A DNA stretch of 64,000 nt, taken from positions 1 through 64,000 of the forward strand of contig JASMAS010000066.1 in assembly GCA_030754235.1 (NCBI GenBank), in the 5' to 3' direction. The DNA is from Litorilituus sp. (GTDB lineage Bacteria; Pseudomonadota; Gammaproteobacteria; Enterobacterales; Alteromonadaceae). Of the stretch, positions 22,957-39,592 are shown one piece after another; within the stretch, counting starts at the first letter, position 1; each line of letters starts with the position of its first letter. The notes under the pieces were generated by a model. It was not told the DNA's origin. It was given only the letters and a program-made list of their open reading frames with translations, and did not search any database. The translations under genes were made by a program, and so were the position numbers.

Positions 22957-24255
22957 CTATTTCCACTTTTTCATTTTGCAGCCTTTGACCGCATAAAATA
23001 AAATAAAAAGGTAACAGGGAAACAACACTAAATACCCTCCTTGCTCAGCCATATTTGTCGCTGTTGAAGTAAGACTCCAAAACATAGGGCCGAAAGCCCC
23101 CCCTGAAATGCCCATAATGAGTAAAGCTGAGCCAACACTAGTTAACTTGCCGACACCAGATAAAGCCAAAGGAAAAACGGCTGGCCAAACAATAGCATTA
23201 GCAAAACCTAGAAAGGCTATTAACACTAAAGTATCTGGCAGCGCAACTCCGCCTAAAAATGTATTTGCAATGACATAAGCGTTATTGTCACCAAAAACAA
23301 TGCCTAGCGTTAAGAGCAGCCCAAGGATAGCTGAAATAATTAATGCTTTTTGTTGTGAAATAACACGTGGGATAAGCACAATTCCTAAAATGTAACCTGC
23401 AACCATACAAAGCATGGTATATGAGGTCATCATCGTGTAGTTTTCCACCCCTAAAGAAAGTGCAAATGTGCCGATGGTATCTCCGGCAATAACCTCTGCT
23501 GCAACATAGAAAAATAATGCAACAACACCTAACACTAGATTAGGGTGTGATAATGCCTCTTTAAGGTAGCCTGAGTGATCTTTATCTGCTTGAGCTTCAC
23601 TTTCTAATTCAGGCAATGGAGACATTTTTACAGCTAAGGCTAATAAACCAAGAAAAATTGCCATACCTAAATAAGGTAAAACTAACGAATTAGCCATATT
23701 ATTTATTTCAACTTGGGTTAATTCGCCACTAACGTTATCAAATCCACTTAAAATTAATGCCGTAAATACCATGGGTGCAATCACCCCTGCACCTTTATTT
23801 AAAATCCCCATAATAGAGATACGCGCGGCAGCTGACTCTTCTGGTCCAATGCGAACTACATATGGATTAACAGCCGTTTGCAATAAGGTGATACCAGATC
23901 CCATGACCAACTGTGCAAACAAAAATAAAGCAAAGATCTGTGTTTTAGCTGCCGGAATAAACAGTAATCCCGCTATCATCATGGTTGCCATACCCAACGC
24001 CATGCCCGTTTTATAACCAACTTTGCGAATAACTGCCGCCGATGGTAGTGCAGTAAAAGTTACGGCGATATAGAAGGAAAATAAAATAAGCGATGCTTCA
24101 AAGGGGCTCAGTCGCAAAATCTGCTGCAAATAAGGCATTAAAGAACCATTTAACCAAGTCGCAAAGCCTAGGATAAAAAAAAGTGTAGCAACTATTATCA
24201 TAGGCAAAGCATTACTTTGTTTTTTTTCGTTGCCTTGTGTTATTGACATTTCCAT
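22957..24255 (-). CDS. nagP: N-acetylglucosamine permease NagP (MFS, FucP/GluP-type)
   Basis: Twelve-helix sugar:cation symporter of the FucP subfamily of the major facilitator superfamily, 432 residues. It begins with a polar leader and FFILGFATWLNGSLMPYLQ, the family pattern, and has the conserved TLLQTAVNPYVVRIGPEESAAARISIMGILNKGAG segment. The region around residues 215-230 is the cytoplasmic central loop. The context (downstream of nagK and nagA, NagR operator before the operon) makes N-acetylglucosamine the likely substrate, as for NagP of Shewanella. Glucose or galactose transport cannot be excluded from sequence alone. No PTS component for GlcNAc is present, which fits a kinase-based pathway. 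Confidence 0.88.
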   Translation of the reverse strand: MEMSITQGNEKKQSNALPMIIVATLFFILGFATWLNGSLMPYLQQILRLSPFEASLILFSFYIAVTFTALPSAAVIRKVGYKTGMALGMATMMIAGLLFIPAAKTQIFALFLFAQLVMGSGITLLQTAVNPYVVRIGPEESAAARISIMGILNKGAGVIAPMVFTALILSGFDNVSGELTQVEINNMANSLVLPYLGMAIFLGLLALAVKMSPLPELESEAQADKDHSGYLKEALSHPNLVLGVVALFFYVAAEVIAGDTIGTFALSLGVENYTMMTSYTMLCMVAGYILGIVLIPRVISQQKALIISAILGLLLTLGIVFGDNNAYVIANTFLGGVALPDTLVLIAFLGFANAIVWPAVFPLALSGVGKLTSVGSALLIMGISGGAFGPMFWSLTSTATNMAEQGGYLVLFPCYLFILFYAVKGCKMKKWK

Positions 24256-24332: not shown

Positions 24333-25487
24333 CTATTTATCACTAGAACCTGTTGAACTATAACAAGGCTCGCCACCAATCCATGTTTCGTTAACCGATA
24401 AATCATCATTTAATACAATAAAATCAGCTCGTTGACCAACTTTTAATTCACCGCGACATGGGCGTTCACCATATAAATATTGTGCAGGATATAAACTCGC
24501 CATCCGCAATGCTTCATCTAGAGGAAGCTTTAGTGCTATGTGCGTATTCTTCACAGCTGTTGCCATATCTAAAGACGAGCCAGCTAACTCCCCTGTGGTT
24601 GAGGTTAGTTTTCCCTCTTCAACATATACGGTTCGATCATACAATGGGAATTCAGTTATGTTGGTACCTACCGGAGGCATAGCATCGGTTACTAAAAATA
24701 TTTTACCACCCTGCTTTGCTTTGATAGCTAATTGACAGCTAGCATAATCAACATGGTGACCATCAACAATTAGCCCTGCATAAGTATTATCATTTAGCAA
24801 AGCACAGCCAACTACGCCTGGCTCTCTTCCTTGCAGAGGCGACATTGCATTAAATAAATGCGTAAAACCGCTAGCGCCCGAATCTACTGCTTTTTGTGCC
24901 GTAGTAAAATCAGCATTGGTATGGCCTAAACAAACGTTAATGTTTAACTCAACCATACGGCTAATATCTTCAGGTGATACTGTTTCCGGTGCTAAAGTCA
25001 CCATAACTTGGCCAATATCTTTACGAGATAATATCGCCCATTCTTTCGTTGTTATCGGCCTGATGAACTCAGCACAGTGGGTGCCCTTCTTGGCTAAAGA
25101 CAGGTGTGGCCCTTCAAAATGGATGCCAATAATACCGGGTGTCTTTTGTGCTATTGCCAACGCTATTACATCAGCAGCTTTCGCCATGACTTCTACTTTA
25201 TCGGTTATCAAGGTAGGCATCATTGCTGTCGTGCCAAACCTAGCATGGGCAGACATGATAGTGGTGAGCTTACTTAACGAGGGAGAGTCATTAAATAAAG
25301 CCCCACCACCACCATTAACTTGTAAATCAATATAACCAGGAACAACTAAACCTTTAGCACGTAAATCAATATTATGTGTATCATCATCAATAGCGCTAAT
25401 CTCACCATTAACTATCGTGATAACGAGATCTGTGTGAAAATGATGCCCATCAAATAATTGAGGAGCATATAAGCGTACCTTTGTCAT
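24333..25487 (-). CDS. nagA: N-acetylglucosamine-6-phosphate deacetylase
   Basis: Removes acetate from GlcNAc-6-phosphate to give glucosamine-6-phosphate. It has 384 residues of an amidohydrolase-type TIM barrel. The first strand has YIDLQVNGGGG, where the usual HxH is replaced by QxN as in E. coli NagA. The metal-binding Glu is in IGIHFEGPHLS, and His ligands are in CLGHTNAD and THLFNAMSP. The catalytic Asp is in LVTDAMPP. The GEL/G-rich C-terminal segment ends with VLNDDLSV. It lies between nagK (17 bases upstream) and nagP, so the three form one operon under the operator at 26541-26564. Confidence 0.95.
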   Translation of the reverse strand: MTKVRLYAPQLFDGHHFHTDLVITIVNGEISAIDDDTHNIDLRAKGLVVPGYIDLQVNGGGGALFNDSPSLSKLTTIMSAHARFGTTAMMPTLITDKVEVMAKAADVIALAIAQKTPGIIGIHFEGPHLSLAKKGTHCAEFIRPITTKEWAILSRKDIGQVMVTLAPETVSPEDISRMVELNINVCLGHTNADFTTAQKAVDSGASGFTHLFNAMSPLQGREPGVVGCALLNDNTYAGLIVDGHHVDYASCQLAIKAKQGGKIFLVTDAMPPVGTNITEFPLYDRTVYVEEGKLTSTTGELAGSSLDMATAVKNTHIALKLPLDEALRMASLYPAQYLYGERPCRGELKVGQRADFIVLNDDLSVNETWIGGEPCYSSTGSSDK

Positions 25488-25504: not shown

Positions 25505-26422
25505 CTAGTTGAATTGACCTATCTCATCTTGCTGCAGTGCCAACTTTTGTTGAACAAAAATCACAGCCCCAACTTCTGGAGGGCTTAATGATTCTGATAA
25601 CTGCATTTGCACCTCCTGCGACAACCATGCTTTTAGAATAGGCGCAATGCCACCCAGTAGCGAAATTCGTGCAGGTTTTTTCGCTAATAAAATTCGAGCT
25701 AGGGTATCGATATACTCAACCCCCTCTTCAATAATAGCTATGGCAACCTTGTCTCCCAAGTTTGCCGCATCAAATACTATATTGGCTAACTGGGCATAAA
25801 AAGTTGCCTTTTTTGAGACTATCATTTCAACTATGGAGGTTGCATCAGAGCAAGAGAGTTTTGTTAATAACATTTCATTCATTATTGATGGCTCTACAAT
25901 ACCGTCAATTGAAAGCAAGACTTGTTTGGTCGCTTGCAAGCCAAACCAAGCACCACTACCTTTATCTCCTTGAGGAAAACCATGACCACCGATAAGAAAT
26001 TCTTGCTCATCAATACATGAAAATCCACACGATCCTGTACCTGTAATAATGACGGCGCCATTGTTAACTTGGTGCGCTCCTAAACAGGCAATCATTAAAT
26101 CATGGGCTAAAAACATTTGCTTAAATGGATGTTTCCATAACTGCATTTGTTTCAATTGCGCTGGTAAATTAACACCCGCCAAACCAATACCGGCATTGAT
26201 ATTATGCAGGTTTACACCTTCTAAATCTGCATCTTTTAGCGCCAACGTAGCAGACTCAATAATTGAATTAGTTGCTTGCTCAAATCCATGTAGAGGGTTT
26301 CCTGGTCCAGACAGTCCTGTTCCTAAAATCTCATTATTTCCATTTGTAATAATGGCTTTACATTTGCTCCCACCACCATCAATACCTAAAAAAAATTCCT
26401 TGTTCTGACTACTTTTGAACAT
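25505..26422 (-). CDS. nagK: N-acetylglucosamine kinase (BadF/BadG family, NagK type)
   Basis: ATP-dependent kinase that phosphorylates imported GlcNAc at C6. It has 305 residues of the ASKHA fold. Phosphate-1 loop is FLGIDGGGSKCKAII near the start, then GLAGVNLP, the second phosphate loop in VIITGTGSCGFS, a segment GGHGFPQGDKGSGAWFG and the adenosine loop LLGGIAP. These match the BadF/BadG/BcrA/BcrD ATPase family, to which human NAGK and Shewanella NagK-II belong. It is not the ROK-type NagK of E. coli. It has a good ribosome-binding site (GAGG, 5 bases before ATG) and is the first gene of nagK-A-P. Confidence 0.9.
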   Translation of the reverse strand: MFKSSQNKEFFLGIDGGGSKCKAIITNGNNEILGTGLSGPGNPLHGFEQATNSIIESATLALKDADLEGVNLHNINAGIGLAGVNLPAQLKQMQLWKHPFKQMFLAHDLMIACLGAHQVNNGAVIITGTGSCGFSCIDEQEFLIGGHGFPQGDKGSGAWFGLQATKQVLLSIDGIVEPSIMNEMLLTKLSCSDATSIVEMIVSKKATFYAQLANIVFDAANLGDKVAIAIIEEGVEYIDTLARILLAKKPARISLLGGIAPILKAWLSQEVQMQLSESLSPPEVGAVIFVQQKLALQQDEIGQFN

Positions 26423-26540: not shown

Positions 26541-26564
26541 ACACATGACAGCGCTGTCATGTGT
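26541..26564. promoter_or_regulatory. NagR operator before nagK-nagA-nagP
   Basis: A perfect 24-bp palindrome, arms ACACATGACAGC and GCTGTCATGTGT, lies about 120 bases before the nagK start. The core TGACAGCGCTGTCA recurs at four other places in the locus, next to a LacI-type regulator gene, which supports it as the NagR site. Confidence 0.85.
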
Positions 26565-26645: not shown

Positions 26646-29303
26646 TTATTGGCTAACCACTTCTGTTATACGACCCGTGCGTTGACCATTTTTACTGCGG
26701 CTTCTCACTTGAACCACGCCTTTAACCGCAACAGGTTTGTTATAAACTCGCCACAATTGCTGTTCATCTTGGTATTCAATGGTTAGTCCTGGAAAAGCTA
26801 TATTTGCTTTTAAAAGCCCTTTTTCAACCACAGCTCCCACTGTGGGTAAGCGATAAGCAATGTCACTACGTTCCAGTTTTTCTAACTCTTTTTGCCCGAG
26901 TAAATTGGCAAATAGACGCCAGTTCTCATCCCTAGCCCTTTGCTTTGCTTCCGAAAAAGTACTGCTTTGTTGACTATATACAGCTCCTTGAAAATTATAA
27001 GGTACAGCCCAAGGCGGTAAATGCCAAGCGCGCTCAGCTAGGGCTAATAGCCGAGGAAATATTTTATGCTCTACTAGCGCATCCGTTCGGGTATTCTCAC
27101 TCCATAATTGCCCCTGAATGCCAAAAAACTTTCGCCCTTGTGCTAAAGGGGTTTTAGTATCATCTGCTACATAAGCATTATCTTCTCTGTCTTTCCAAAA
27201 CTCAGCATGAACAGGTAAATTATCCGGCATAAATTGGAACACTTTCTCGGTATTAGTATGACGAGACGCCCAATAATAACCATGCTCTTTAGGATCGGCT
27301 TCGTAAGGAAAATCAAAATATAATGCATCTGGACTAGAGATCACTATTTGCCAATTTCTATTGGCTAAAGCATGAACTTTATCATGCCCCCCAAAAAACA
27401 AAACATCCCAAGCATTAGCTTGCACTATGGCTGGCATGTTTTCTTTGCGAGTATGCTCCATACCATCACTCCACCCTGCCGTTTCAATATCAAGGCTAGA
27501 TAAAATACTGGCAACACGCTCAATAAAATAAGCACCCAACTCACTCATTTGAGTAACGCCTTTGTCATTATTAGCAACAAAGGCTTTACAGGCTGGCGAC
27601 TCAAGCCATGCACCGGCAGTTTCATCAGCCCCTATATGATAACGAGTGAGCGGTTGACCCGCTTTAGCATGAATTTTTTTAACTTGGCTCATCACCTCAA
27701 CAACAAAGGCGTATGAAGACTCTAAACACACATTGATAGTATTATCACGATAATACTGCACTGACGAGTATTGAGTTTTATCATCAAAATCATCTAGCAA
27801 GAATTGCTTAGCTTGTTCTTCATTCTCTTGCGCCTGATATTTATGATATCGCGCTGTCATTGCTTTCATAGCTGCGCGTGAATGACCCGGCATATCAAGA
27901 GAAGGAATGACTTGAATATGGCGCTGCGTTGCCGCCTGCAATATTTGTTGATAATCGTCAACACTGTAAAACCCGTTAATGGCTGAGTTAGTATCAACTC
28001 CTGCTCCAAGTTGAGGCATAAGACAAGTTTGCTCTTGTGTGTCAAAACAACGTTTACTCGCGACATCGGTTAATTCAGGTAAACTTGGAATCTCTAATCG
28101 CCAACCTTCATCATCCCCTAAATGTAAATGAAGCTTGTTTAACTTATAAGCTGCCATTTGATCTAACAACTTTAAAATAAATGCTTTTGAGTGAAAGTTG
28201 CGGGCAACATCCACTAGCATACCACGAAAGGGATAATGTGGTTCATCTTCAATCTCTAGCAAGGGTAAAGAGATCGTATTCACTGTATATAAACTGGCTA
28301 ATGACTGCAAGCCGTAAAAAACCCCCGTATCATCAACGCCAATAATGGTTATTCCTTGCTTTGTAACAGCTAACTGGTAGCTACCAATGGCTTTACTAGG
28401 GTCGGTTTTTACCTTTAATTGCACTGTTACCCCTGATTCATTTGACTTTAAACCTAAACGTGCAAGCCTGTCTAAAGCCGCCTTTACTTTCGGTTGAGCA
28501 ACATTATTAAAGTCAACTTGGATGCCTTGGCTGATATCTAGCACTTCATTATTTTTGCCATAACGTACTTTTTTAGGGGTAGGAATAATCATGCTAGCAA
28601 CCGAGGAGGATACTTGAGCCGACTCACTCGCAGTAGCTAAATTACGCTGATAAAGCGCTTCACTAGTTAACCAGCGAGTACTATCCATACTGGTACGCTT
28701 AAACTGAGTAACTTCATCACTAAATGGAGTGACAAAAGGTAATACTTCTAATCCTGAGTCTTTATCTATTTTACTTTTCGTGCTGCTAATTACACGCGCT
28801 TCTAAGTTTGTTGCGGATACCAAGTAGTTGGGCAAGGCATCAGTCTCTGAAAGCATCCAGAAGTTTGCTCTAAAAATAACTTTTTTTATTTCACCCGCTT
28901 TAAAACCAGTAAAATTATCCTTTAAAACTATTCGATGTAGATCACCATTTAAATGTTCAATGCTCAGTTCATCACCAGCAGAACTTTGCACTGGGGAGAT
29001 TTGGCTAAAATAGATGAACCAATCTTTAACATTAATAGCCTGCTTAGCAGTAAAGCTAAGCTCTACCTCAAAACAAGCACCATCGGAGATTTTTTTGTCA
29101 CACTTATCAGTGGGAATATTGGTGATTAGACGATAATTAACATCTAGATTATTTGCGATGTCGTCAAGATTAGTTTGTGTTACTTTATTGACAGAATACT
29201 CCCCAGCGATATTAGCTTGGGGTGTAGAGATTTTCGAAGTAGGCTCACAAGCTATTAATGTAGTGCTTGCAGCAATTAATAGGGATAAAAGTTTTTTATT
29301 CAT
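26646..29303 (-). CDS. Beta-N-acetylhexosaminidase (GH20), lipoprotein
   Basis: Exo-hydrolase that releases GlcNAc from chitooligosaccharides, 885 residues. The signal peptide ends in LIAC (Cys19), so it should be a lipoprotein. An N-terminal carbohydrate-binding-like domain (about 45-180) contains CFEVELSFTAKQAINVKDWFIYFS and a GH20b-like alpha/beta domain follows (about 240-345). The catalytic TIM barrel starts at PHYPFRGMLVDVARNFH and has the Asp-Glu pair in YHIGADETAGAW. A C-terminal beta domain follows. This is the bacterial chitobiase layout. A NagR operator lies 74 bases before the ATG. It lies alone between nagK and the SapC/halogenase genes, all on the minus strand. Confidence 0.93.
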   Translation of the reverse strand: MNKKLLSLLIAASTTLIACEPTSKISTPQANIAGEYSVNKVTQTNLDDIANNLDVNYRLITNIPTDKCDKKISDGACFEVELSFTAKQAINVKDWFIYFSQISPVQSSAGDELSIEHLNGDLHRIVLKDNFTGFKAGEIKKVIFRANFWMLSETDALPNYLVSATNLEARVISSTKSKIDKDSGLEVLPFVTPFSDEVTQFKRTSMDSTRWLTSEALYQRNLATASESAQVSSSVASMIIPTPKKVRYGKNNEVLDISQGIQVDFNNVAQPKVKAALDRLARLGLKSNESGVTVQLKVKTDPSKAIGSYQLAVTKQGITIIGVDDTGVFYGLQSLASLYTVNTISLPLLEIEDEPHYPFRGMLVDVARNFHSKAFILKLLDQMAAYKLNKLHLHLGDDEGWRLEIPSLPELTDVASKRCFDTQEQTCLMPQLGAGVDTNSAINGFYSVDDYQQILQAATQRHIQVIPSLDMPGHSRAAMKAMTARYHKYQAQENEEQAKQFLLDDFDDKTQYSSVQYYRDNTINVCLESSYAFVVEVMSQVKKIHAKAGQPLTRYHIGADETAGAWLESPACKAFVANNDKGVTQMSELGAYFIERVASILSSLDIETAGWSDGMEHTRKENMPAIVQANAWDVLFFGGHDKVHALANRNWQIVISSPDALYFDFPYEADPKEHGYYWASRHTNTEKVFQFMPDNLPVHAEFWKDREDNAYVADDTKTPLAQGRKFFGIQGQLWSENTRTDALVEHKIFPRLLALAERAWHLPPWAVPYNFQGAVYSQQSSTFSEAKQRARDENWRLFANLLGQKELEKLERSDIAYRLPTVGAVVEKGLLKANIAFPGLTIEYQDEQQLWRVYNKPVAVKGVVQVRSRSKNGQRTGRITEVVSQ

Positions 29304-29780
29304 TTGATTGATTCACATACCGTTGATATTAAATGTAGAATTAACTACCTTACTCAAAGTAGTTAACCTGACTCAATTTGACAGCGTTGTCAAACATGCT
29401 TTTTATTATAAAATAATTTATTAGAGATCCATTTACGCATTGACTTCAGGGGGCGTTCACATATGTCCCCGTTAATTTTAGTGTTAGCGTGGAATTAAAG
29501 GAAATGGTTAGTCGCTTTCTTTTTGTTTGAGTATCAAGGTCAATTAAAGGCTATATTGGTCATAAAACCGTTATAAAGTAATATACAAAATCAAAAAAGA
29601 GTATTAAAAACAAAGAATCGTGATCTGAGCTAAAGCTCAGTTCATAAGTTTAAAATATTAAAGTTACTTTTTCAGGACTGCTAAGTCACTCATAATCTAG
29701 TCACATCTTTGTCTTAATAGTATAAAGCGTTTCTAATTTCAACTAACCCATACATTTTAAAGTAGCTTGACATAGATAGT
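29304..29780. other. Intergenic region upstream of the hexosaminidase gene
   Basis: This stretch of 477 bases holds the hexosaminidase promoter with a NagR operator (29377-29394) and a short hairpin (CTGAGC-TAAA-GCTCAG, 29625-29640) on the side of the SapC-like gene stop. The hairpin has no T-run directly after it, so I do not call it a terminator. I see nothing else interpretable. Confidence 0.5.
29377..29394. promoter_or_regulatory. NagR operator before the hexosaminidase gene
   Basis: TTTGACAGCGTTGTCAAA is a palindrome apart from one G-T pair in the centre, 74 bases before the hexosaminidase ATG. It shares the TGACA-n4-TGTCA core with the other sites of the locus. Confidence 0.82.
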
Positions 29781-30488
29781 TTATTTCAATATTTTTTTAT
29801 TCGCGAGAAAACCTATTGATTTCATTGATATTAATACAGAATAAATAGGTGCAAGCGCACTACTTTTTCTTAAACTGACAAATGCCTCATCTGATAATTC
29901 GTGTAATATTTTTTCGTCAATAACATACAGGCCATTTAACGTATATTCATCTTGATTTGCTAACTTTATATTTAAACTCTGTGGTGATAGTAACTTATGT
30001 TCAAGCAATATTTTAATAAATTCTTGGGTTAATTGGGTATGTTCTAAGTAATCAACTACAGATTCTCCTTTAGTTGTTAACCAAGGTTGTTGAACACCTT
30101 TATTATCAAACAAAGCAGAACCTTCAGTTTCATTAACCAGAGGTGAGCTTTCATCAAAACATAAGATTGCTTGGTTATTATCTTTTTCTTGATGAACCAA
30201 AAAAGGATATAATTTTAACGCTTGCGGAACATAGTGCCCTTGCCAGCCTTTCTCATCATAAAATAAATTCTCATCTGGTTTTAACCCTAGCAGGGCAACG
30301 GCATTGAACTGCCCCGTATCTAAGTCTTTTATAAAAACAATAGGGAATTGCTGACATGCCGAAGCAAACTCTTTTACCACAAGGGGAGAAAAATGTTTAT
30401 CTTTGCTTTGCTGAAAACTAGGATTTTCTTTTATTTTTATTTTCCCATGCGAGCTGCTATTAATTGCTTGGATATTTGCCACATTCAT
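29781..30488 (-). CDS. SapC-family protein
   Basis: A 235-residue protein without signal peptide or membrane helix. The pattern FPIVFIKDLDTGQFNAVALLGL, followed by WQGHYVPQALKLYPF and AILCFDESSPLV, is that of the SapC family (named after an old peptide-transport annotation that is probably misleading). Its biochemical role is unknown. Such genes commonly accompany TonB receptors and tryptophan-halogenase-like genes in carbohydrate loci, as here, where it follows two such genes with a 23-base gap. CGGAG directly abuts the ATG, so the GTG two codons on (30482, spacing 6) may be the true start. It is the last gene of the receptor-linked cluster. Confidence 0.8.
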   Translation of the reverse strand: MNVANIQAINSSSHGKIKIKENPSFQQSKDKHFSPLVVKEFASACQQFPIVFIKDLDTGQFNAVALLGLKPDENLFYDEKGWQGHYVPQALKLYPFLVHQEKDNNQAILCFDESSPLVNETEGSALFDNKGVQQPWLTTKGESVVDYLEHTQLTQEFIKILLEHKLLSPQSLNIKLANQDEYTLNGLYVIDEKILHELSDEAFVSLRKSSALAPIYSVLISMKSIGFLANKKILK

Positions 30489-30511: not shown

Positions 30512-32080
30512 TTATAATTTTTGTAAGCCAAATTGTGCTATTTTATCTAATAAAGCTCTATTACTTGGTAACTGCTGTTTAAGATGCTCTGTGGCGGTTT
30601 GTACTTGACAGAAAAGCTGCTCTGCTTGATCTTGCATAGTGTACGCATTTTCATTAAAGCTTAACGTTTGTTCAAATCCCATACCATATAAAACGTATTG
30701 GTAACTATCAAGAGGGAAAGGCTCATAAACATTATCAAAGTCATAGCCAGTAACAACTTGATATTGCCAATGTTCAAGTGACGTTAATAATGTATTTGGC
30801 ACCGTGTTGATGCCTTTATTATCTCGCCAAAATGGCTCATCTCGATTTGATAGAAAGTAATGCATTTTAATAAATTCAATGGTTTTATCCCATCGAAATT
30901 TGAACGATTTATTCACTTTATCTTCAACAACTTTCATTGAATGACGATTGTAAGGAAATAATTCTGCTAACATATTCGCCGATGATTCAATTAAAAAAAT
31001 TGCCGAGGCTTCTAAAGGCTCTACAAAAGCGGCAGATAAGCCGATGGCAAAACAATTTTTATGCCAAAACTTCTCACGATAACCAACATTCATTTTAATT
31101 AAACGTGCTTCAAGTTTATTTGTCTGCGGGCCAATATAATCTCGTAAAACTTGCTCTGCTTTTTCATGACTAGTATGCGCAGAAGAATATACATAGCCTG
31201 TTCCACGACGGTTTTTCAAACCAATATCCCAAATCCAACCAGCTTCTTGCGCGGTAGAAATAGTACAACTGGCAATAGCCGTCTCTTCTGTTTCGTAAGG
31301 CACTTGAATGGTAACAGCATGATCAGTTAATAGCGTATCGCTAATACTTTTAAACTTTATACCTAAGGTTTCACCAATGAGTAAACTTTTAAAACCGCTA
31401 CAGTCAACAAAAAAATCACCTGACTGTATGCCAAAAGTATCGGTATTAACTGATTCAATATAACCATCATCATCAGTGTTAACTTGCGAAACATTGGCAG
31501 AAATATGTTTTACGCCTAAGTTTTCAGTTGCATGTTCCCTTAATAAGTCAGTAAATAAACCCGCGTCAAGATGGTAGGCGTAGTTTTGCATACCCTCAAA
31601 TTCTTTGTGATTAATAGCTTTTGGCGCTAATGCTAAATCACACAAAGCACCTTGCATACTAACGGTCTCTGCGTAATTATGCCCTTGACCTATTTTTCCC
31701 AGTTGCCAATATGGAGCTAAGTTAAAAGCCAAAGGATCGTTTATAGAGGTAAACAAATGATAATAGTGGTTATTATTTCCCTGTTGGGGTGCTTCTTTCC
31801 AATTAACAAATTTAGTGCCTTGTTTAAATGAAGCGTTGCAGCGGTTCAAAAAATCTGTTTCACTAATCCCAAGCTTAGCTAATGTTTTACGCATAGTAGG
31901 CCAAGTACCTTCGCCAACACCTATGGTGGGAATATCAGGTGACTCAATCAAGGTGACTTGTATTGTGTTATCAACACTACTATTAAACTTTTTCGCTAGG
32001 GTAGCTGCGGTTAACCAGCCAGCAGTGCCACCACCGACAATGATGACCTGTTTGACTGGTTTCGTTTGTTTATTTTTCAT
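30512..32080 (-). CDS. Tryptophan-halogenase-like flavoprotein (second of two)
   Basis: FAD-dependent protein of the tryptophan halogenase family, 522 residues. The FAD-binding motif GGGTAGW is at residues 16-22, followed by IPTIGVGEGTWP. A Lys aligned by context with the catalytic Lys of PrnA/RebH is in ASFKQG (Lys86). The family motif WxWxIP is altered to GWIWDIG (281-287), so the Pro is lost, and GTGYVYSS follows. C-terminal helices contain AIGLSAAFVEPLEASAIFL. Retained Lys suggests some halogenation or another flavin reaction; the real substrate is unknown and free tryptophan is not implied by context. It lies between a paralogue and the SapC-like gene, 23 bases from each. Confidence 0.85.
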   Translation of the reverse strand: MKNKQTKPVKQVIIVGGGTAGWLTAATLAKKFNSSVDNTIQVTLIESPDIPTIGVGEGTWPTMRKTLAKLGISETDFLNRCNASFKQGTKFVNWKEAPQQGNNNHYYHLFTSINDPLAFNLAPYWQLGKIGQGHNYAETVSMQGALCDLALAPKAINHKEFEGMQNYAYHLDAGLFTDLLREHATENLGVKHISANVSQVNTDDDGYIESVNTDTFGIQSGDFFVDCSGFKSLLIGETLGIKFKSISDTLLTDHAVTIQVPYETEETAIASCTISTAQEAGWIWDIGLKNRRGTGYVYSSAHTSHEKAEQVLRDYIGPQTNKLEARLIKMNVGYREKFWHKNCFAIGLSAAFVEPLEASAIFLIESSANMLAELFPYNRHSMKVVEDKVNKSFKFRWDKTIEFIKMHYFLSNRDEPFWRDNKGINTVPNTLLTSLEHWQYQVVTGYDFDNVYEPFPLDSYQYVLYGMGFEQTLSFNENAYTMQDQAEQLFCQVQTATEHLKQQLPSNRALLDKIAQFGLQKL

Positions 32081-32103
32081 AAATCATTACCTCGTTTTAC
32101 CCA

Positions 32104-33699
32104 CTAGACTTGGCTAAAACCATATTGAATAACTTTATCAATAAGAGCTCTGTGCTTAGGAAGTTTTTTTCCCATCAATTCACTCACTTTATCTATCTCG
32201 GTAAAAAGTTGTTCTGCTTTTACAACATCCGTATATTTTGATGCCACTTCGCTAACATCAGTGTCAAAACCCATGCCGTAAAGTACGTATAAGTAACTAT
32301 CAAGGTTAAAGGGCTCCCAAGCATTATCAAAGTCATACTTGGTTGGCGGCTGACTTTTCCAAAAACTAAGACGTTCCTGTAAGTGTGTTGGAATACTGAC
32401 AGGATTACAGTTATCAATCCAGTATTGGCTATCTCGACGATCTGAAATGCAATAATGCAACTTTATAAATTCTACAGTGCGTTCCATACGTAAAGTTAAT
32501 TGTTGATTAAATTTACGCTCTGCATAGGTCATTTGTGCTTTATCTCGGGGAAATTGAGCAGCAAGCATATTAGCAGCAGCATCAAACAAGAAAATAGCAG
32601 ATGCTTCAAGAGGTTCAATAAATCCTGCAGACATACCTATTGCAACACTATTTTTATGCCAAAATTTTTGATGATAACCATGATTCAGTTTGATCTTGCG
32701 AATCGTTAATTCGCTATTGTAATCATCACCTAAATAGTCAATTAACTGTTTTTTCGCTTTTTGCTCTGTGGTGTATTTACTGCTGTATACGTGACCAACA
32801 CCTCGGCGAGTTTGCAATGCTATATCCCAAATCCAACCCGCATCTTGTGCTGTTGCCAAAGTATGAGTATTAATCGCTTGATCTTTATCTTGATAAGGAA
32901 CTTGCACCGCGAGTGCTGTGTCATTAAAAATAATGTCGCTAATGTCATGCCAAGGAATATTGTAAGTTTCTTTAATAATAAGACCTTTATTACCGCTACA
33001 ATCAATAAAAAAATCAGCGTTTATTTTATCTATACTAGGGTGGTCAGTAACAACATGCTTAATAAATTCATCATCATCTAGCAGAACGCTAGTGACGTTA
33101 GCACTGACAAAATTAACACCCAATTTTTCAATACAGTGACGTTTTAAAAAAGCAGAAAATTTATTGGCGTTAAGGTGGTAAGCATACTCTTGCACTGCAC
33201 TGTATTGCGGCATTACAATTTGTTTTGGCGCAATACCTTGATCACATAATCTGACTTGAGACGCAACGGCGCGATCATAAGATAAACGAGTCTTTTTATC
33301 TTGCTGTAACCAATAAGGAGCAAGATTAAAGTTATACGATGAATGATTAACAGTACTTAGTGGATGATAATAACTTGAGTTCGGATTTTTCTCTGAATTC
33401 GGCTCAGGTGTTTTGGCCCAGTTAATAAATTCTGCACCTTGCTTAAAGGTAACATCACACTCTCGAATAAAATCTGTTTCACTAATGCCAATACGATTCA
33501 AAGTAGCACGTAAATTGGGCCAAGTTCCTTCACCAACACCCAAAATTGGAATATCAGGTGATTCAATTAAGGTAACTTTTACTCCATCATCGTGTTTACT
33601 GTGCAAGCTTTTAGCTAAAATTGCTGCACTTAACCAACCAGCGGTACCACCACCAATGATAAGGATGTGATCATTCTTACTACAGTTATTGTTAGCCAT
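32104..33699 (-). CDS. Tryptophan-halogenase-like flavoprotein (first of two)
   Basis: Paralogue of the next gene, 531 residues, clearly homologous over its whole length. FAD motif GGGTAGW is at 16-22, GVGEGTWPNLR follows, and the candidate catalytic Lys86 is in VTFKQG. The WxWxIP motif is replaced by GWIWDIA (288-294), then RRGVGHVYSS. The C-terminal part has AIGMSAGFIEPLEASAIFLFDAAANML. The two copies differ enough to suggest an old duplication with separate roles, perhaps a heterodimer. It follows the TonB receptor gene, with strong hairpins in between, so it may be reached by partial read-through or have its own promoter. Confidence 0.85.
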   Translation of the reverse strand: MANNNCSKNDHILIIGGGTAGWLSAAILAKSLHSKHDDGVKVTLIESPDIPILGVGEGTWPNLRATLNRIGISETDFIRECDVTFKQGAEFINWAKTPEPNSEKNPNSSYYHPLSTVNHSSYNFNLAPYWLQQDKKTRLSYDRAVASQVRLCDQGIAPKQIVMPQYSAVQEYAYHLNANKFSAFLKRHCIEKLGVNFVSANVTSVLLDDDEFIKHVVTDHPSIDKINADFFIDCSGNKGLIIKETYNIPWHDISDIIFNDTALAVQVPYQDKDQAINTHTLATAQDAGWIWDIALQTRRGVGHVYSSKYTTEQKAKKQLIDYLGDDYNSELTIRKIKLNHGYHQKFWHKNSVAIGMSAGFIEPLEASAIFLFDAAANMLAAQFPRDKAQMTYAERKFNQQLTLRMERTVEFIKLHYCISDRRDSQYWIDNCNPVSIPTHLQERLSFWKSQPPTKYDFDNAWEPFNLDSYLYVLYGMGFDTDVSEVASKYTDVVKAEQLFTEIDKVSELMGKKLPKHRALIDKVIQYGFSQV

Positions 33700-33774: not shown

Positions 33775-33800
33775 ATGGTGGTTACTACCTTAACCACCAT
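33775..33800. other. Hairpin adjoining the receptor terminator
   Basis: A perfect 10-bp stem (ATGGTGGTTA with TAACCACCAT) and a 6-base loop lies directly next to the terminator at 33801-33828, on the side of the halogenase genes. It has no T-run of its own. It could protect an mRNA end or modulate read-through. Confidence 0.6.
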
Positions 33801-33828
33801 AAAAAAGGAAAGTAAACTTTCCTTTTTT
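33801..33828 (-). terminator. Terminator after the TonB receptor gene
   Basis: A perfect 13-bp stem (AAAAAAGGAAAGT with ACTTTCCTTTTTT) with a 2-base loop lies about 35 bases after the receptor stop. It is symmetrical. It separates the receptor gene from the halogenase pair on the same strand. Confidence 0.85.
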
Positions 33829-33864
33829 ATTTACTATGTTTTAAAGGCTTACCTTAACTACTTT

Positions 33865-36420
33865 TTATAAACGGTAAGATACTTTTAAGAATACGTTACG
33901 ACCATTATCTGCCGCTAAGCGCATCGCCGTGAAGCCTTCACCAAATCGTTGAGTAGTTGTCTCTTCAAATAAGTTTGTCGCTTCAATACTTACATCTAAG
34001 TTTTCAGTTGCATGCCAAGTACCACTTAAATCAAAAATTCCGTATGAATCCCAATTCGTGTTACCACCGATACCTGTAGAAGGAGAAATAAAGCTATCAC
34101 GGTAAGTATATGCTGCACGTGCTGCAAACATGTCTGTTTCATAATACGCGCTTAAGTTATAGCTAAGTTTAGACAAACCAGATAATGGTCTCTCTTCAAC
34201 GTTTCCATCAACATTTTCCAAACCAAAACCTTCAGTGTAAGTGATGTTAGCAGACCAACCGAATGCCCCCATTTGCTGTTGATATTGCCCTTCAATACCT
34301 TGAAGTTCACCGCCTAATCCTTGGCCTGGTTCATTTACAATGTATTCAATTCCGTTCGCTTGAATTGTACTTTGGTTTGCACCAGGAACAATAAATGAAC
34401 GAATATCTTTGCTAAACAATGTGGCTGATAAAAGTGATTCATCGTTGAAATACCACTCTACACCAATATCTGCTTGTGTCGCGCGATATGGGTCTAGTTT
34501 AATACTACCGCGGGTAATATTTATTGAGGCCGCTCCACCGTCATTAGTAGGAATGTTAGCAGCAGGGTTTAAAAAGGTGTAATTTGGGCGACTTATTACT
34601 TTCGCAGCAGACATACGTAAAATAACACTTTCTGATAAGTTTAACGCTAAGTTAAAGCTTGGTAACCAATCAGCATAGTCACTCTTTTCAGTTTCTATTG
34701 TAGAGGTATCAATATAACCATAATAATCAGCAGAAGTATCTGTTGCTACATAGCGTAAACCTAAGTTACCTCGGTAATCATCACCACTAAAGTCAGCTTG
34801 CCCATAAACAGCAAAGATATCTTCTCTAATCACACCATAGCTTGATGTATTTAAGCTTTCGCCTGTTTTATGAGCATTATAGTGTGCTCTTAATTGTGCA
34901 CCATCTGCACGAGCTATATTCGTTGGTGTACCAGCAGCTAAGCCTATACCTGAATGATTAAAGTGGCCATCCGCAAATGATGCTTTAGTAATACCCGTTG
35001 TTAAGCTATCATCAAAAGTCCATGCACTAGAGTAGCTTGTAAATTCATGATCGCGTACTTTAACACCTGTTTTGAAGTTTGAAATAGGGCCCCAGTCAAC
35101 ATCAAAATCAACATCAACTTGAGCAAACGTTTCTTCGTCTTGACGGAAACCAGCTGTAACGGCACCATTATTTAAAATATATTCAGAATGATCGCTCGCA
35201 TCCGTGCCATTTGGTGAAAGTAACATGGAATCACTGCCACTCATGTCAAAATCAATTGATAAATCACTTTTGCTTGAAACCCAACCGGCATTATAGTTAC
35301 CACCATCGCCACCAGTAGCTTCTGTAGTACCTATTTTAGCATTAATCGTGTAAGCATCTCCCGCATACTCAATTTCGTACGCTAATACTTGGGTATCCAT
35401 TTTAGCATTACGCGTATTTTGATCGTCAAATGGAGCACCTGCATAATTACCGTTTAAAGCAAAACCTTTAGTAGGTCCAAATTTGGTAGCACCCGTTACA
35501 TTTCCATTAAAACCAGAAGGGTCTGTACCAGCAATAATCAAATAGTTTTGGTTACTATTTGCTGCATCAAGGTCAATATGAAAATAATGCAAGTTCATTG
35601 ATAGTTCATCAGATGGAGCATATTGAAGCGTTAAGTCTATCGCTTCACGCTCACGAGTTTGGGCAAATTCTGAAATACCGGCTCCAGCCCAACCATCATC
35701 CATATAGTTTTCAGCTTTATGCGCGCGACCAATTGTTTCTAACGTTGATAAAGCAGCTAAAACACCAAAGTTTTCACTTTCGTTTTTCCAGCTATACATG
35801 CCTGTTAAGCCTTTACCGTTTTCGTCAGCTATACTGTTGTCTTGATATTCTGCAGATAAAAACAAAGTATTACTATCTAAGTCTAATGGCTTACGCGTAC
35901 GTACCATTACAGTACCACCAACGCCGCCTTCATCAAGACTTGCTACAGGTGATTTATATACATCAACACCGGCAACAAGCTCAGGTGGTAATAAATCCAT
36001 ATCAAATGAACGTTTAGCCGCTTGTTGAGAAAACCAACCTGTTGATGCGACATAGTTACCATTCATACTAACTTGAGTTAATTCTGAGTTAGTACCGCGA
36101 ATAGAAACATCACCACCTTCACCTGCAAAACTTCTTACGATACTAACACCCGGTATTCTTTGTAATGATTCAGCAATATTACGGTCCGGGAATTTACCAA
36201 TGTCTTCCGCAGAAATAGAATCAACCACGGCATTAGCAAATCGTTTTTGGTTTAATGCTTCTTTTAATGAACCGCGAATACCCTTGACTTGAATGACTTC
36301 AACTTCGTCTTTGTTTACTTTTGCTCCGTCTTCTGCAGCCATAGCTTGTGATGAAACACCAGCTAAGATCATAGCAATTGAACTTGCTAAAACGCCTTTT
36401 TTAAATATTTTTGATGACAT
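33865..36420 (-). CDS. TonB-dependent receptor of the NagR regulon
   Basis: Outer-membrane receptor of 851 residues. A signal peptide (MSSKIFKKGVLASS and hydrophobic core, ending SQAMA) is followed by a possible TonB-box region (VEVIQVKGIRGSL), the plug domain with DIGKFPDRNIAESLQRIPGV and GGDVSIRGTNSELTQVSMNG, and a 22-strand-type barrel ending LKVSYRL. The plug style is that of carbohydrate receptors of Alteromonadales and Xanthomonas. The open frame runs 37 codons further upstream, but that part crosses the two operators; ATG at 36420 follows GGGAAAG and starts the signal peptide, so it is chosen. The likely substrate is a chitin oligosaccharide, inferred from its regulator sites and neighbours. 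Confidence 0.9.
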   Translation of the reverse strand: MSSKIFKKGVLASSIAMILAGVSSQAMAAEDGAKVNKDEVEVIQVKGIRGSLKEALNQKRFANAVVDSISAEDIGKFPDRNIAESLQRIPGVSIVRSFAGEGGDVSIRGTNSELTQVSMNGNYVASTGWFSQQAAKRSFDMDLLPPELVAGVDVYKSPVASLDEGGVGGTVMVRTRKPLDLDSNTLFLSAEYQDNSIADENGKGLTGMYSWKNESENFGVLAALSTLETIGRAHKAENYMDDGWAGAGISEFAQTREREAIDLTLQYAPSDELSMNLHYFHIDLDAANSNQNYLIIAGTDPSGFNGNVTGATKFGPTKGFALNGNYAGAPFDDQNTRNAKMDTQVLAYEIEYAGDAYTINAKIGTTEATGGDGGNYNAGWVSSKSDLSIDFDMSGSDSMLLSPNGTDASDHSEYILNNGAVTAGFRQDEETFAQVDVDFDVDWGPISNFKTGVKVRDHEFTSYSSAWTFDDSLTTGITKASFADGHFNHSGIGLAAGTPTNIARADGAQLRAHYNAHKTGESLNTSSYGVIREDIFAVYGQADFSGDDYRGNLGLRYVATDTSADYYGYIDTSTIETEKSDYADWLPSFNLALNLSESVILRMSAAKVISRPNYTFLNPAANIPTNDGGAASINITRGSIKLDPYRATQADIGVEWYFNDESLLSATLFSKDIRSFIVPGANQSTIQANGIEYIVNEPGQGLGGELQGIEGQYQQQMGAFGWSANITYTEGFGLENVDGNVEERPLSGLSKLSYNLSAYYETDMFAARAAYTYRDSFISPSTGIGGNTNWDSYGIFDLSGTWHATENLDVSIEATNLFEETTTQRFGEGFTAMRLAADNGRNVFLKVSYRL

Positions 36421-36492: not shown

Positions 36493-36510
36493 CAAGACAG
36501 CGCTGTCATT
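36493..36510. promoter_or_regulatory. NagR operator 1 before the TonB receptor gene
   Basis: The sequence CAAGACAGCGCTGTCATT has a perfect GACAGC/GCTGTC core centred at 36501.5, 81 bases before the receptor ATG. It lies 22 bases, about two helical turns, from the next site. Confidence 0.82.
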
Positions 36511-36514
36511 ACCG

Positions 36515-36532
36515 AATGACAACGCTGTCAAG
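36515..36532. promoter_or_regulatory. NagR operator 2 before the TonB receptor gene
   Basis: AATGACAACGCTGTCAAG carries the TGACA-n4-TGTCA core centred at 36523.5. With operator 1 it forms a tandem pair on the same face of the helix, so cooperative binding is plausible. Confidence 0.82.
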
Positions 36533-36656: not shown

Positions 36657-38297
36657 TTATTTAGATTGCTGATAAAACTTGATCAAGTTTTCCGTAGAGC
36701 AATCATGCTGTTGACAAAGCGTTTTCGTCTCCAGTTCTTTCTGAATTTCAGCGGCTAAACCTTTACCTAGCTCGACTCCCCACTGATCGAATGAACAAAT
36801 TTGTAAAATAATACCCTGAACAAAAATTTTATGCTCATAAGCAGCAATTAGGCTGCCAAGCGTTTCCGGATCAATGCGTTTTAACAAAATTGTATTGGTG
36901 GGTCTATTGCCTTTATGCACCTTATGTGGCGCAACCTTTTCAATATAATCGTCTGACCTTCCCTTTGCTTGTAAATCGGCTCTGACTTGATTTTCATCAA
37001 CGCCAACCATTAACGCTTGCGTTTGAGCAAAAAAGTTAGCCATCAGTGTTTCATGATGCCCTTTAACGGGTGTCACACTTTCCACTGAGCCAATAAAATC
37101 GGCCGGTACAACATTATTACTTTGGTGTAAATATTGATAAAAGGCATGCTGGCCATTGATGCCTAATTCTCCCCAAATTGACGGCACTGTTGCATAACTC
37201 ACTTCGTCACCATCCCAAGAAACTGATTTACCATTACTTTCCATTTCAGCTTGTTGTAAGTAAGCCGTTAACATGTGTAATGTTTGATCATAGGGTAAAA
37301 TAGCCTGTGATTGAGATCCTAAAAAAGTGGTGTTCCACACACTAATTAATGCCATTATAACTGGCATGTTCTTGCTTAGCGGCGCCTGAATAAAATGTTG
37401 ATCCATTTCATTTGCCCCTTTTAACAAGGCTGTAAACTTATCAAAACCTAAATCAAGGGCTATTGCCAAACCAATGGCTGACCACAATGAAAATCTGCCT
37501 CCAACCCAGTCCCACATATCAAAAATATTCTGCTCTTCTATGCCTAACTTCATGGCATTTTCTTTATTGGCTGTTACTGCCACAAAATGTTTTGCAATAG
37601 ACTTCTCATCAAATGACGAACTAGTTAACCACTTCATTGAAGTTCGCGCATTTGTCATCGTTTCTGTTGTTGTAAAGGTTTTACTGGAGACGATAAACAG
37701 CACTTTTTCAGGGTCTAGTGGACGTAACACCTCGACTATTTGTGCACCATCAACATTAGAGACATAATGTACATTCACACTTCCGTCACTATAGTGCTTT
37801 AGGGCTTCAGTCACCATTTGTGGACCAAGGTTAGAGCCTCCTACGCCAATATTGACAACATCAGTGATACGTTTTCCTGAATACCCTAACCAGTGACCTT
37901 GCCGAACTTTATTAACAAATACTTCCATTTTTGCTAATTGCTTTTGTATGTGGTCAGTAATGTTTTCTCCGTCTACGATTAATGCTTCATCACTTTGCCT
38001 GCGAAGCGCTGTATGTAACACAGCTCTTTCTTCAGTTTTATTAATCTTTGCACCTGAAAGCATTTTTTCTCGCCACTGGCTCACTTGAGTCTCTTTCGCC
38101 AAATTAAGCAAACAGTCAAGGGTTTCACTATCAATCAAGTTTTTTGAATAATCCAATAACAAATTTGGTAACTCAATAGAGAATTTTTCAAAACGCTGGT
38201 TATCTTGCGCAAACAAAGTATTCATGTGCTGAGATTGTTTATCTTTGGCTAACTGTTGAAGTTTCTTCCAACTTGCTAAATGTTGACGTGTTGACAT
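36657..38297 (-). CDS. pgi: Glucose-6-phosphate isomerase
   Basis: Interconverts fructose-6-phosphate, the end product of GlcNAc breakdown, and glucose-6-phosphate. It has 546 residues. Family signatures are NIGVGGSNLGPQMV, VSSKTFTTTETM, MWDWVGGRFSLWSAIG with the catalytic region, and GINGQHAFYQYLHQ. The His/Lys catalytic area includes the C-terminal GVELGKGLA. The frame is open for 27 codons upstream, but ATG at 38297 is preceded by AGGA and gives the family N-terminus, so it is chosen. It is divergent from nagR, with a NagR-type palindrome 114 bases before its start. This places pgi under aminosugar control here, while it is usually an unlinked housekeeping gene. Confidence 0.95.
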   Translation of the reverse strand: MSTRQHLASWKKLQQLAKDKQSQHMNTLFAQDNQRFEKFSIELPNLLLDYSKNLIDSETLDCLLNLAKETQVSQWREKMLSGAKINKTEERAVLHTALRRQSDEALIVDGENITDHIQKQLAKMEVFVNKVRQGHWLGYSGKRITDVVNIGVGGSNLGPQMVTEALKHYSDGSVNVHYVSNVDGAQIVEVLRPLDPEKVLFIVSSKTFTTTETMTNARTSMKWLTSSSFDEKSIAKHFVAVTANKENAMKLGIEEQNIFDMWDWVGGRFSLWSAIGLAIALDLGFDKFTALLKGANEMDQHFIQAPLSKNMPVIMALISVWNTTFLGSQSQAILPYDQTLHMLTAYLQQAEMESNGKSVSWDGDEVSYATVPSIWGELGINGQHAFYQYLHQSNNVVPADFIGSVESVTPVKGHHETLMANFFAQTQALMVGVDENQVRADLQAKGRSDDYIEKVAPHKVHKGNRPTNTILLKRIDPETLGSLIAAYEHKIFVQGIILQICSFDQWGVELGKGLAAEIQKELETKTLCQQHDCSTENLIKFYQQSK

Positions 38298-38410
38298 AAC
38301 GGTTCCTGTTTTTAAGCAAATACAAATAAAGTAAAAGTCTGTAGAGTCACCTGAAGTCGCCATAAAATTTGATGGCATGATGATAAGAAGACTGAAAGTT
38401 AAGCTACTTT

Positions 38411-38444
38411 ACCAACAAATTGACAGCGCTGTCAATTTGTTGGT
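38411..38444. promoter_or_regulatory. NagR operator between pgi and nagR (34-bp palindrome)
   Basis: A perfect palindrome with 17-base arms (ACCAACAAATTGACAGC and its complement) is centred on the TGACAGCGCTGTCA core. It lies 114 bases before pgi and 120 bases before nagR, so it can serve both genes, including autoregulation of nagR. Confidence 0.85.
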
Positions 38445-38563: not shown

Positions 38564-39592
38564 ATGAAAGCAACCATTAACGATGTCGCCAAGTTGTCAG
38601 GTGTTTCAATAAAAACGGTTTCTAGGGTAATGAATAATGAACCCTCTGTACGCCAGCTTACCAGAGAAAAAGTTCAAGCGGCTGTCAAAGAGCTTAACTA
38701 CCAACCTAATTTAGCAGCGCGAAACTTAGCTGGCACAAAATCCTACACCATTGCTTATGTTTATGATAACCCCAATGCTTATTATGTTATTGATATGCAG
38801 GTAGGTATTTTAGAGGCCTGCCGTCAACAAGGCTTTGAATTATTGATTAACCCTTGTGACTCTCAACAAGAAAATATCACTGAAGATATCATCAACACAA
38901 TTAAACAAGCCCGAGTGGCAGGCTTAGTACTTACTCCCCCATTTTCTGAAAATCCAGCCTTTGTTCAGCGTATTATTGAACTAGACATAAAAGTGGTGCG
39001 TATCATGTCAGGTGATAGCGCTCCTGACGAGCTAAGCCCATGCGTAATGGTAAATGATAGAGATGCCGCTCAAACCATCACCCAACATTTAATTGATTTA
39101 GGGCATAAAAAAATAGCTTTTATTGCGGGAGAGGCTGAACATATGTCAACCATTGAACGTTATAAAGGTTATAGACGGGCGCTAAAGCACAATAATATTG
39201 AATTTAATAAGAATTTACTGATTGAAGGTGAGTATTCTTTTGATTCAGGAGTGCAAGGGGCAAAACAATTAATGTCGACTAATAACCTTGAAGAAAATCG
39301 CCCTAGTGCAATATTCTCTTGTAATGATGAGATTGCTGCTGGTGCCTTATTTGCCTCACGGTTAATGGACATTAACATTCCCGAACAACTCTCTATTGCT
39401 GGCTTTGAAAATAGTCCATTTTCGCGCCAAACTTGGCCAAAATTAACCACGGCTAATCAGCCAAATATAGAAATAGCCAAAAATGCTGCCAGTATACTTA
39501 TCGGCCAAATACGCAAAAAACAAAATTGTAATAACACCAGCCAATACGTCCCTCAGTTAGTGATAAGAGATTCTACAGGCAAGTATTCATAA
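38564..39592 (+). CDS. nagR: LacI-family transcriptional regulator of aminosugar use (NagR)
   Basis: DNA-binding repressor of 342 residues. The N-terminal helix-turn-helix is TINDVAKLSGVSIKTVSRVMN (residues 3-23), followed by the hinge helix YQPNLAARNLAG. The ligand-binding domain is of the periplasmic-binding-protein type, with HKKIAFIAGEAEHMSTIERYKGYRRAL and PSAIFSCNDEIAAGAL. The effector is probably GlcNAc-6-phosphate or glucosamine-6-phosphate, as in the Shewanella NagR regulon, but that is inference. Its cognate site is presumably the palindrome found before itself/pgi, the receptor, the hexosaminidase and nagK. It converges with the tetR-type gene downstream. Confidence 0.9.
   Translation: MKATINDVAKLSGVSIKTVSRVMNNEPSVRQLTREKVQAAVKELNYQPNLAARNLAGTKSYTIAYVYDNPNAYYVIDMQVGILEACRQQGFELLINPCDSQQENITEDIINTIKQARVAGLVLTPPFSENPAFVQRIIELDIKVVRIMSGDSAPDELSPCVMVNDRDAAQTITQHLIDLGHKKIAFIAGEAEHMSTIERYKGYRRALKHNNIEFNKNLLIEGEYSFDSGVQGAKQLMSTNNLEENRPSAIFSCNDEIAAGALFASRLMDINIPEQLSIAGFENSPFSRQTWPKLTTANQPNIEIAKNAASILIGQIRKKQNCNNTSQYVPQLVIRDSTGKYS

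Follow-up and report, generated by a model that had tools for sequence, protein, structure and literature searches.

Gene block at the locus

The window analysed here, a 64,000-nucleotide stretch of DNA from a 3.33 Mb draft genome of Litorilituus sp. (contig JASMAS010000066.1), contains a block of four minus-strand genes in which two flavoproteins of the tryptophan halogenase family PF04820 and a SapC-family protein accompany a TonB-dependent receptor. In the order of transcription, the block comprises the receptor (33865..36420; TIGR01782, 596.5 bits against a cut-off of 310, with a PF07715 plug and a PF00593 barrel), the flavoproteins TrpH2 (32104..33699; 410.7 bits, cut-off 21) and TrpH1 (30512..32080; 412.9 bits, cut-off 21), and SapC (29781..30488; PF07277, 230.8 bits, cut-off 28.9). 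The receptor most likely starts at ATG 36420, since the listed TTG 36531 adjoins a NagR-like site; its N-terminus, read by eye, resembles a signal peptide.

An earlier note on this DNA had described a pair of paralogous FAD proteins, and both open reading frames are found where it placed them, match PF04820 and carry the sequences GGGTAGW and FKQG, the latter with Lys at position 86. The SapC-family member that it included in the block is equally real, but its coordinates fall outside the range given there.

Linkage of the flavoproteins to TonB receptors

Gene neighborhoods were surveyed in two sets. The first consists of 12 genomes of the family, the window genome included, with 86 TIGR01782 receptors at E ≤1e-100. 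Of the 68 PF04820 genes in these genomes, 58 have such a receptor no more than 8 kb away, compared with 3.2 expected under random placing; the same distance applies to SapC (22 of 31; 1.4 expected), DUF6445 (6 of 7) and Cupin_8 (7 of 8). Among the ten unlinked PF04820 genes, two (L170, L173) adjoin another TonB receptor and four (L166, L168, L171, L189) adjoin a GH31, GH13 or sugar-transporter gene; the single neighbor scanned in L169 gave no match, and three genes (L167, L172 and G008:C165) were left without neighbor assignment. The window genome itself has six PF04820 genes in four receptor clusters, a seventh, weak match (25 bits) being excluded. Among the control genomes, that of Caulobacter vibrioides also gives matches to PF04820, PF07277, TIGR01782 and Cupin_8.

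The second set consists of 80 loci retrieved solely with PF04820 patterns; these are the best 80 of 586 and hence close relatives of TrpH1. Thalassotalea, Paraglaciecola and Colwellia are among the near relatives in this survey, which suggests a gammaproteobacterium of Alteromonadales type for the window. Module genes in the loci were found by six-frame profile search. A receptor-profile match lies within 3 kb in 68 of the 80 loci and within 500 bases in 59, and in six further loci Pfam recognized a TonB receptor that had escaped the profile, giving 74 in total. The remaining six are L053, L092, L096 (gene at contig end), L081 (receptor about 4 kb away), L045 and L068. Companions found nearby are SapC (54 loci), a cupin (24) and DUF6445 (16). 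The earlier note had made its idea depend on how such genes are placed with respect to TonB receptors, and in both sets the placing is non-random. Linkage of flavoprotein and receptor is a rule, and the module is very probably tied to the receptor functionally in some way.

A hairpin between receptor and enzymes

An attenuator-like hairpin with a T-run lies on the minus strand between the receptor and TrpH2 (33799..33830; −14.7 kcal/mol, z −3.58). It was omitted by a terminator scan, which gave 12 sites versus 8.3 expected, as its T-run forms part of the stem. Terminator-like hairpins are present at 54 of 98 receptor–module junctions, versus a mean of 8.8 in shuffled junctions, where junctions were counted over both locus sets as same-strand profile hits less than 700 bases apart. 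Inside the modules a hairpin occurs in a single gap out of 180, although these gaps are shorter (median 36 versus 114 bases at junctions). When only gaps of at least 80 bases are compared, hairpins are found in 50/80 junctions and in 1/16 gaps within modules. The window genome has one at three of the four receptor–module junctions tested. Since the hairpin separates the receptor from the enzymes, any co-transcription would be attenuated read-through, which suggests that the enzymes are produced in lower amounts than the receptor.

The two flavoproteins and their subfamily

TrpH1 and TrpH2 are 48% identical. Both contain the FAD-binding GxGxxG signature as GGGTAGW and retain the putative catalytic Lys (Lys86, in FKQG) and Glu (Glu357, in EPLEAS; TrpH1 numbering), which are conserved in 181 of 183 homologues. 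By motif, we take these residues to be equivalent to Lys79 and Glu346 of PrnA, a protein that is itself outside the alignment. The 183 homologues represent 181 distinct ones, since one locus sits in both sets (L082 = L180). The closest solved structure to TrpH1 is 2PYX (E 1.7e-150), whose row of the alignment likewise shows gwiwdig and epleas.

The WxWxIP motif is altered to GWIWDIG in TrpH1 and to GWIWDIA in TrpH2, as had been pointed out before. This is not, however, a special feature of the pair: the final residue of the motif in the 183 homologues is G in 94, P in 75, D and A in 5 each, S in 3 and C in 1, so that 108 lack Pro. The split between Pro and non-Pro forms requires two changes on a tree of 181 homologues (two without Lys and Glu left out), and the alteration therefore marks a subfamily.

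On the same tree, the closest relatives of each window flavoprotein are the two proteins of L025 and of L197. The TrpH1/TrpH2 pair thus looks to have arisen before the lineages of the window, L025 and L197 split, and to have been retained, judging by the tree. The two nearest relatives of TrpH2 have Gly where its motif ends in Ala. In the GlcNAc-type (N-acetylglucosamine-type) loci L024, L027, L082 (= L180) and L179, the second flavoprotein has a divergent GWAWxID form, with Asp where the motif has Pro, which among the 183 homologues is confined to these loci.

Free tryptophan is disfavored as the substrate. The motif associated with it (Trp4, HYHGFE kind) is found in 0 of 183 homologues, using a pattern that we built after the motif table in the available part of PMC8269204.

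Degenerate PF04820 copies stand beside intact ones at L176:3763 and L203:14085, both without the motif Lys and Glu, and at L144:3171, a weak profile match (score 40). It is possible that such copies are non-catalytic partners.

SapC and its genomic company

The AlphaFold2 model of the window SapC is of high confidence (predicted local distance difference test, pLDDT, 96.9). Its fold has no match in the PDB (Foldseek best E 0.4) or among viral models (best E 0.096), and its sequence profile found no solved relative at E ≤1. The starts of SapC, TrpH1 and TrpH2, read by eye and without a predictor, show no signal peptide; the three proteins would therefore be cytosolic and meet the receptor only before its export.

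In a sample of 75 genomes from the class, SapC is found in nine (E ≤1e-25) and PF04820 in four (E ≤1e-80). The seven genomes with SapC only, two of which are less than 80% complete, have no TIGR01782 receptor at E ≤1e-60. In these genomes without TIGR01782, seven of the eight SapC places are beside a gene for an exoprotein or an exporter (five by Pfam, two by eye). The neighbors of SapC there include TpsB/ShlB transporters (L214, L220 and L221 by Pfam; L217 by eye from the open reading frame) and giant proteins, which Pfam recognized in L215 (there with TolC and HlyD) and in L218 and which look repeat-rich by eye in L216 and L217. A Pfam scan of the L216 neighbors gave no match, and the L219 neighbor is a peptidyl-prolyl isomerase (Pfam).

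We also considered 17 plasmid SapC places, picked to represent different genera from two overlapping searches that gave 58 and 57 records. According to product names, eight of them are next to, or at most two genes away from, large exoproteins or type I exporters; SapC lies near two-partner (TpsA/TpsB) or type I secretion genes or giant repeat proteins in L235, L237, L241–L245 and L248. One of the 17 is a receptor–halogenase module, and an eighteenth place, found in the halogenase search, is another receptor module with SapC. Large exported proteins may be the common factor of SapC places. In addition, nine of the 12 family genomes have a solo SapC away from receptors (L012:8630-9397 and L225–L232). 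The neighbors of solo SapC in L226, L228 and L232 are similar in size to those in L229.

A heteromer of the flavoproteins with SapC, which had been suggested for the window, finds a single, weak hint. A 664-residue open reading frame (L068:9998-11992) combines PF04820 with a C-terminal SapC-like part scoring 23.6 bits, below the Pfam cut-off. Of 59 same-strand pairs in which the halogenase lies upstream, it is the one possible halogenase–SapC fusion.

GlcNAc setting and NagR-like sites

Downstream of SapC on the same strand, in the order of transcription, lie genes for a GH20 beta-hexosaminidase (26646..29303; PF00728, 299.9 bits), a GlcNAc kinase of SO3507 type (25505..26422; NF046058, 420 bits, cut-off 370), the GlcNAc-6-phosphate deacetylase nagA (24333..25487; TIGR00221, 283.3 bits, cut-off 225.65) and the GlcNAc transporter NagP (22957..24255; NF046060, 734.2 bits, cut-off 625). 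The GlcNAc setting is firm because the kinase and NagP exceed NCBIfam equivalog cut-offs. Upstream of the receptor block lie a gene for glucose-6-phosphate isomerase (PGI; 36657-38378) and, on the opposite strand, a LacI-family regulator (38564..39592, plus strand; PF00356 and PF13377, below every NCBIfam cut-off), taken to be NagR from its gene setting.

A palindrome, TGACARCGYTGTCA, occurs in five copies around the genes of the locus, four of them exact and one with a single mismatch. Two copies precede the receptor, as the earlier note had claimed: 36517..36530, which is exact and conserved in relatives, and 36495..36508, which has the mismatch. The others lie upstream of the hexosaminidase (29379..29392), upstream of the GlcNAc kinase (26546..26559) and between the PGI gene and the LacI regulator (38421..38434). 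From this gene setting we infer that the palindrome belongs to NagR. No such site stands in front of TrpH2.

The window contains seven NagR-like matches at up to two mismatches, versus 0.79 expected. At up to one mismatch the whole genome has eight sites, five of them in the GlcNAc locus, while a reversed control pattern gives one per strand. Allowing one mismatch, a site is present in the roughly 450 bases upstream of the receptor in 12 of 13 distinct GlcNAc-type loci (all except L147), versus 9 of 141 other receptors, which supports the NagR setting proposed for the block. The GlcNAc-type loci were picked by eye from gene content and arrangement before the site scan (14 listed, 13 distinct, as L082 = L180); the window is included among them and is not independent evidence, because the pattern was read from it.

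Elsewhere, a receptor with a long N-terminal extension (L014:8160-13508, C67) stands opposite a pair recognized by eye as an ECF sigma factor and FecR; the L014 module may be under transmembrane signalling.

Sugars and companion genes

The modules of the window genome belong to the GlcNAc locus, to an alpha-glucan locus (C49, recognized by eye) and to two others. Pfam families of the neighbors include glycoside hydrolases (GH16, GH3, GH1, GH36), an agarase carbohydrate-binding module, sulfatases, sugar kinases and transporters; this covers 84 proteins from 29 low-GC loci and, among the matches listed, 25 of 100 families. On a Catenovulum plasmid, a receptor–halogenase–SapC module adjoins an agarase. 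The sugar thus differs between loci while the module persists, so that the imported sugar, one of the targets suggested in the earlier note, is improbable as the flavoprotein substrate.

The 340-residue companion is a Cupin_8 protein with a JmjC match (one protein scanned). DUF6445 has an HxD motif, a His and an Arg that are invariant in 17 sequences, and its model (pLDDT 94.6) gives Foldseek matches to Fe/2-oxoglutarate (Fe/2OG) oxygenases, including the HIF prolyl hydroxylase 2 PHD2 (E 4e-4 to 6e-4, TM about 0.4). A DUF6445 sequence profile found no solved relative at E ≤0.1. On the strength of the invariant residues and the model, the DUF6445 protein (L014:4965-5681) and its relatives are predicted to be Fe/2OG oxygenases.

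In a GlcNAc locus of Thalassotalea, a sulfotransferase-family gene (L024:11588-13126) separates the module from the hexosaminidase.

A proposed function and its alternatives

We tentatively hypothesize, with somewhat less than even confidence, that the cytosolic module carries out an oxidative modification, probably halogenation, of the receptor precursor, SapC being an adaptor for export substrates. NagR would govern the receptor promoter, and read-through past the hairpin would yield smaller amounts of the two flavoenzymes and SapC. The enzymes would act in the cytosol on the unfolded precursor, ahead of Sec export, using FADH2, O2 and halide to produce a halogenated (less likely hydroxylated) aromatic side chain, while SapC would hold or present the precursor as an export substrate. 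We favor modification of the precursor because the motif residues are kept, the linkage to receptors persists across sugars, expression appears to be attenuated, SapC keeps company with exported proteins, and the three proteins lack signal peptides. The receptor had been named before as a possible target; the linkage speaks for it, but in a weak test no receptor residue could be seen to track the module.

A broader version is distinctly more doubtful. Proteobacteria might covalently finish many sugar TonB receptors by means of cytosolic halogenase-like flavoproteins of two kinds, joined in some loci by a JmjC-like cupin or DUF6445; the precursors would be presented by SapC, which would also serve as an adaptor for two-partner and type I substrates.

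Enzymes acting on Trp within proteins offer a parallel: LodB and GoxB act on protein Trp. QhpG, which structurally resembles FAD-dependent halogenases, is cytoplasmic and acts on a Trp of the polypeptide QhpC, as described in the accessible part of PMC7876137. The likeness of these maturases to the window pair lies in the proposed mode of action alone.

A number of observations weigh against modification of the receptor precursor. NCBIfam scores of the window proteins are far below the cut-offs for QhpG (about 40 of 240 bits), LodB (32–34 of 400) and GoxB (29.7 of 400, TrpH1 only), which places the pair outside these families. About half of the TIGR01782 receptors in the 12 genomes (42 of 86) lack a PF04820 neighbor within 8 kb. 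Much of the linkage is inherited, since the receptor tree requires only 10 changes of it, versus 49 for shuffled labels. Cupins are near in only 24 of the 80 loci and DUF6445 in only 16.

A search for a receptor residue signature of the module gave no clear one: among 31 columns preselected for frequency difference, none convincingly tracks gain or loss of the module over nine independent pairs, at low power. The best column, 1951, changes in the same direction in 3.9 pairs and in the opposite one in 0.2; the test is weak both ways, because fewer than six differing pairs cannot reach 0.05. The Trp content is nearly equal (0.0127 vs 0.0115), and we know of no halogenated receptor, although no search was made for one. 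As for SapC, its class-wide co-occurrence with PF04820 is weak, both being found together in only 2 of 75 genomes. Eight of the 17 plasmid SapC places have no close exoprotein or receptor (two have candidates further away), and the solo SapC that was scanned (L229) has no exoprotein beside it and adjoins mraZ/mraW/ftsL.

The flavoproteins could instead halogenate or oxidize a small aromatic compound, such as indole, that enters through the receptor or is signalled by it, SapC being an unrelated accessory. We regard this as possible, though on the doubtful side. Retention of the motif Lys and Glu in the homologues agrees with it, as does the halogenation of indole by BrvH in vitro; the activity is low, and according to the part of PMC5945002 at hand the authors question whether indole is the substrate in nature and note that larger substrates could enter. 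This explanation sits poorly with the tendency of receptors to have their own copies, as in the four clusters of the window genome, and with sugars that vary from locus to locus; the absence of the free-Trp motif speaks against free Trp alone.

It is unlikely that the proteins aid folding, quality control or export of the receptor without covalent chemistry, the flavin domain being a redox-dependent binding module. The frequent position of SapC next to exporters and giant exoproteins would fit, and so would the degenerate halogenase copies beside intact ones; however, the Lys and Glu kept in nearly all copies would be needless for binding, and the hairpin suggests sub-stoichiometric amounts of enzyme.

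Somewhat less probable still is production of a halogenated signal or antimicrobial by the enzymes while food is available, with the receptor linkage reflecting nothing other than sugar regulation. Some modules have LacI-type genes nearby and others do not, as though regulation were taken over from the local surroundings, and a role in competition has been suggested for Colwellia halogenase transcripts in a metatranscriptome (PMC11337851, in part). Left unexplained are the many receptor-linked copies (19 PF04820 genes in genome G009), the oxygenase companions and SapC. Finally, neighborhood by descent alone, in which an old receptor–enzyme pair was often duplicated without common function, would agree with the few linkage changes on the receptor tree, but is very improbable given that the enzyme also adjoins TonB receptors missed (six loci) or weakly matched (two loci) by the receptor profile, and that module gene order is reshuffled between loci while membership is largely retained.

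Annotated tryptophan halogenase genes are being mined for biocatalysts, and the natural substrate of the group is unsettled; if many of them belong to receptor modules, the search for substrates should shift from free indoles to receptor peptides. TonB receptors import sugars in many marine and plant-associated bacteria, and modification of the precursor would, if true, be the first case, to our knowledge, of a TonB receptor being covalently finished. SapC, for which no solved relative was found here, would gain a testable role in export. The question can be addressed directly at the window locus, because it combines a clean candidate inducer, GlcNAc, with a single receptor and three accessory genes.

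Comparison with known systems

A literature search returned no paper joining halogenase, SapC and TonB, and nothing joining NagR, tryptophan halogenase and N-acetylglucosamine (subscription papers were outside both searches); among the matches listed, nothing joined SapC and tryptophan halogenase. The available part of PMC11337851, which mentions tryptophan halogenase and TonB-dependent proteins, does not treat a linkage of halogenase and receptor.

Sugar CUT loci and the NagR regulon resemble the window in combining, for a single sugar, a TonB receptor with a transporter, a hydrolase and a LacI regulator, as described in parts of PMC2996990 and PMC1790865; neither 'halogenase' nor 'SapC' occurs in the main text of these papers. 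The sapCDEF S-layer locus of Campylobacter fetus shares the name SapC and the link to an exported surface protein (PMC4943207, in part). The window SapC differs in accompanying a receptor and flavoproteins without a type I exporter, the two being compared by name.

The PF04820 halogenases without a free-Trp site (BrvH, 6FRL; Xcc4156; 2PYX) have the same FAD motif, Lys and Glu as the window pair; the structure of Xcc4156 is, as we take it, 6Y1W. BrvH retains WxWxIP, according to the accessible text of PMC5945002, whereas the window pair, known from sequence alone, has Gly or Ala in place of Pro.

Another sequence relative of TrpH1 has a solved structure, 5UAO (E 3.4e-49). Within the same family, MibH acts on a Trp of a lanthipeptide (PMC8269204, in part). 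It shares with the function proposed here a Trp within a peptide and differs in belonging to lanthipeptide biosynthesis, with no receptor. The relative 5UAO is presumably MibH.

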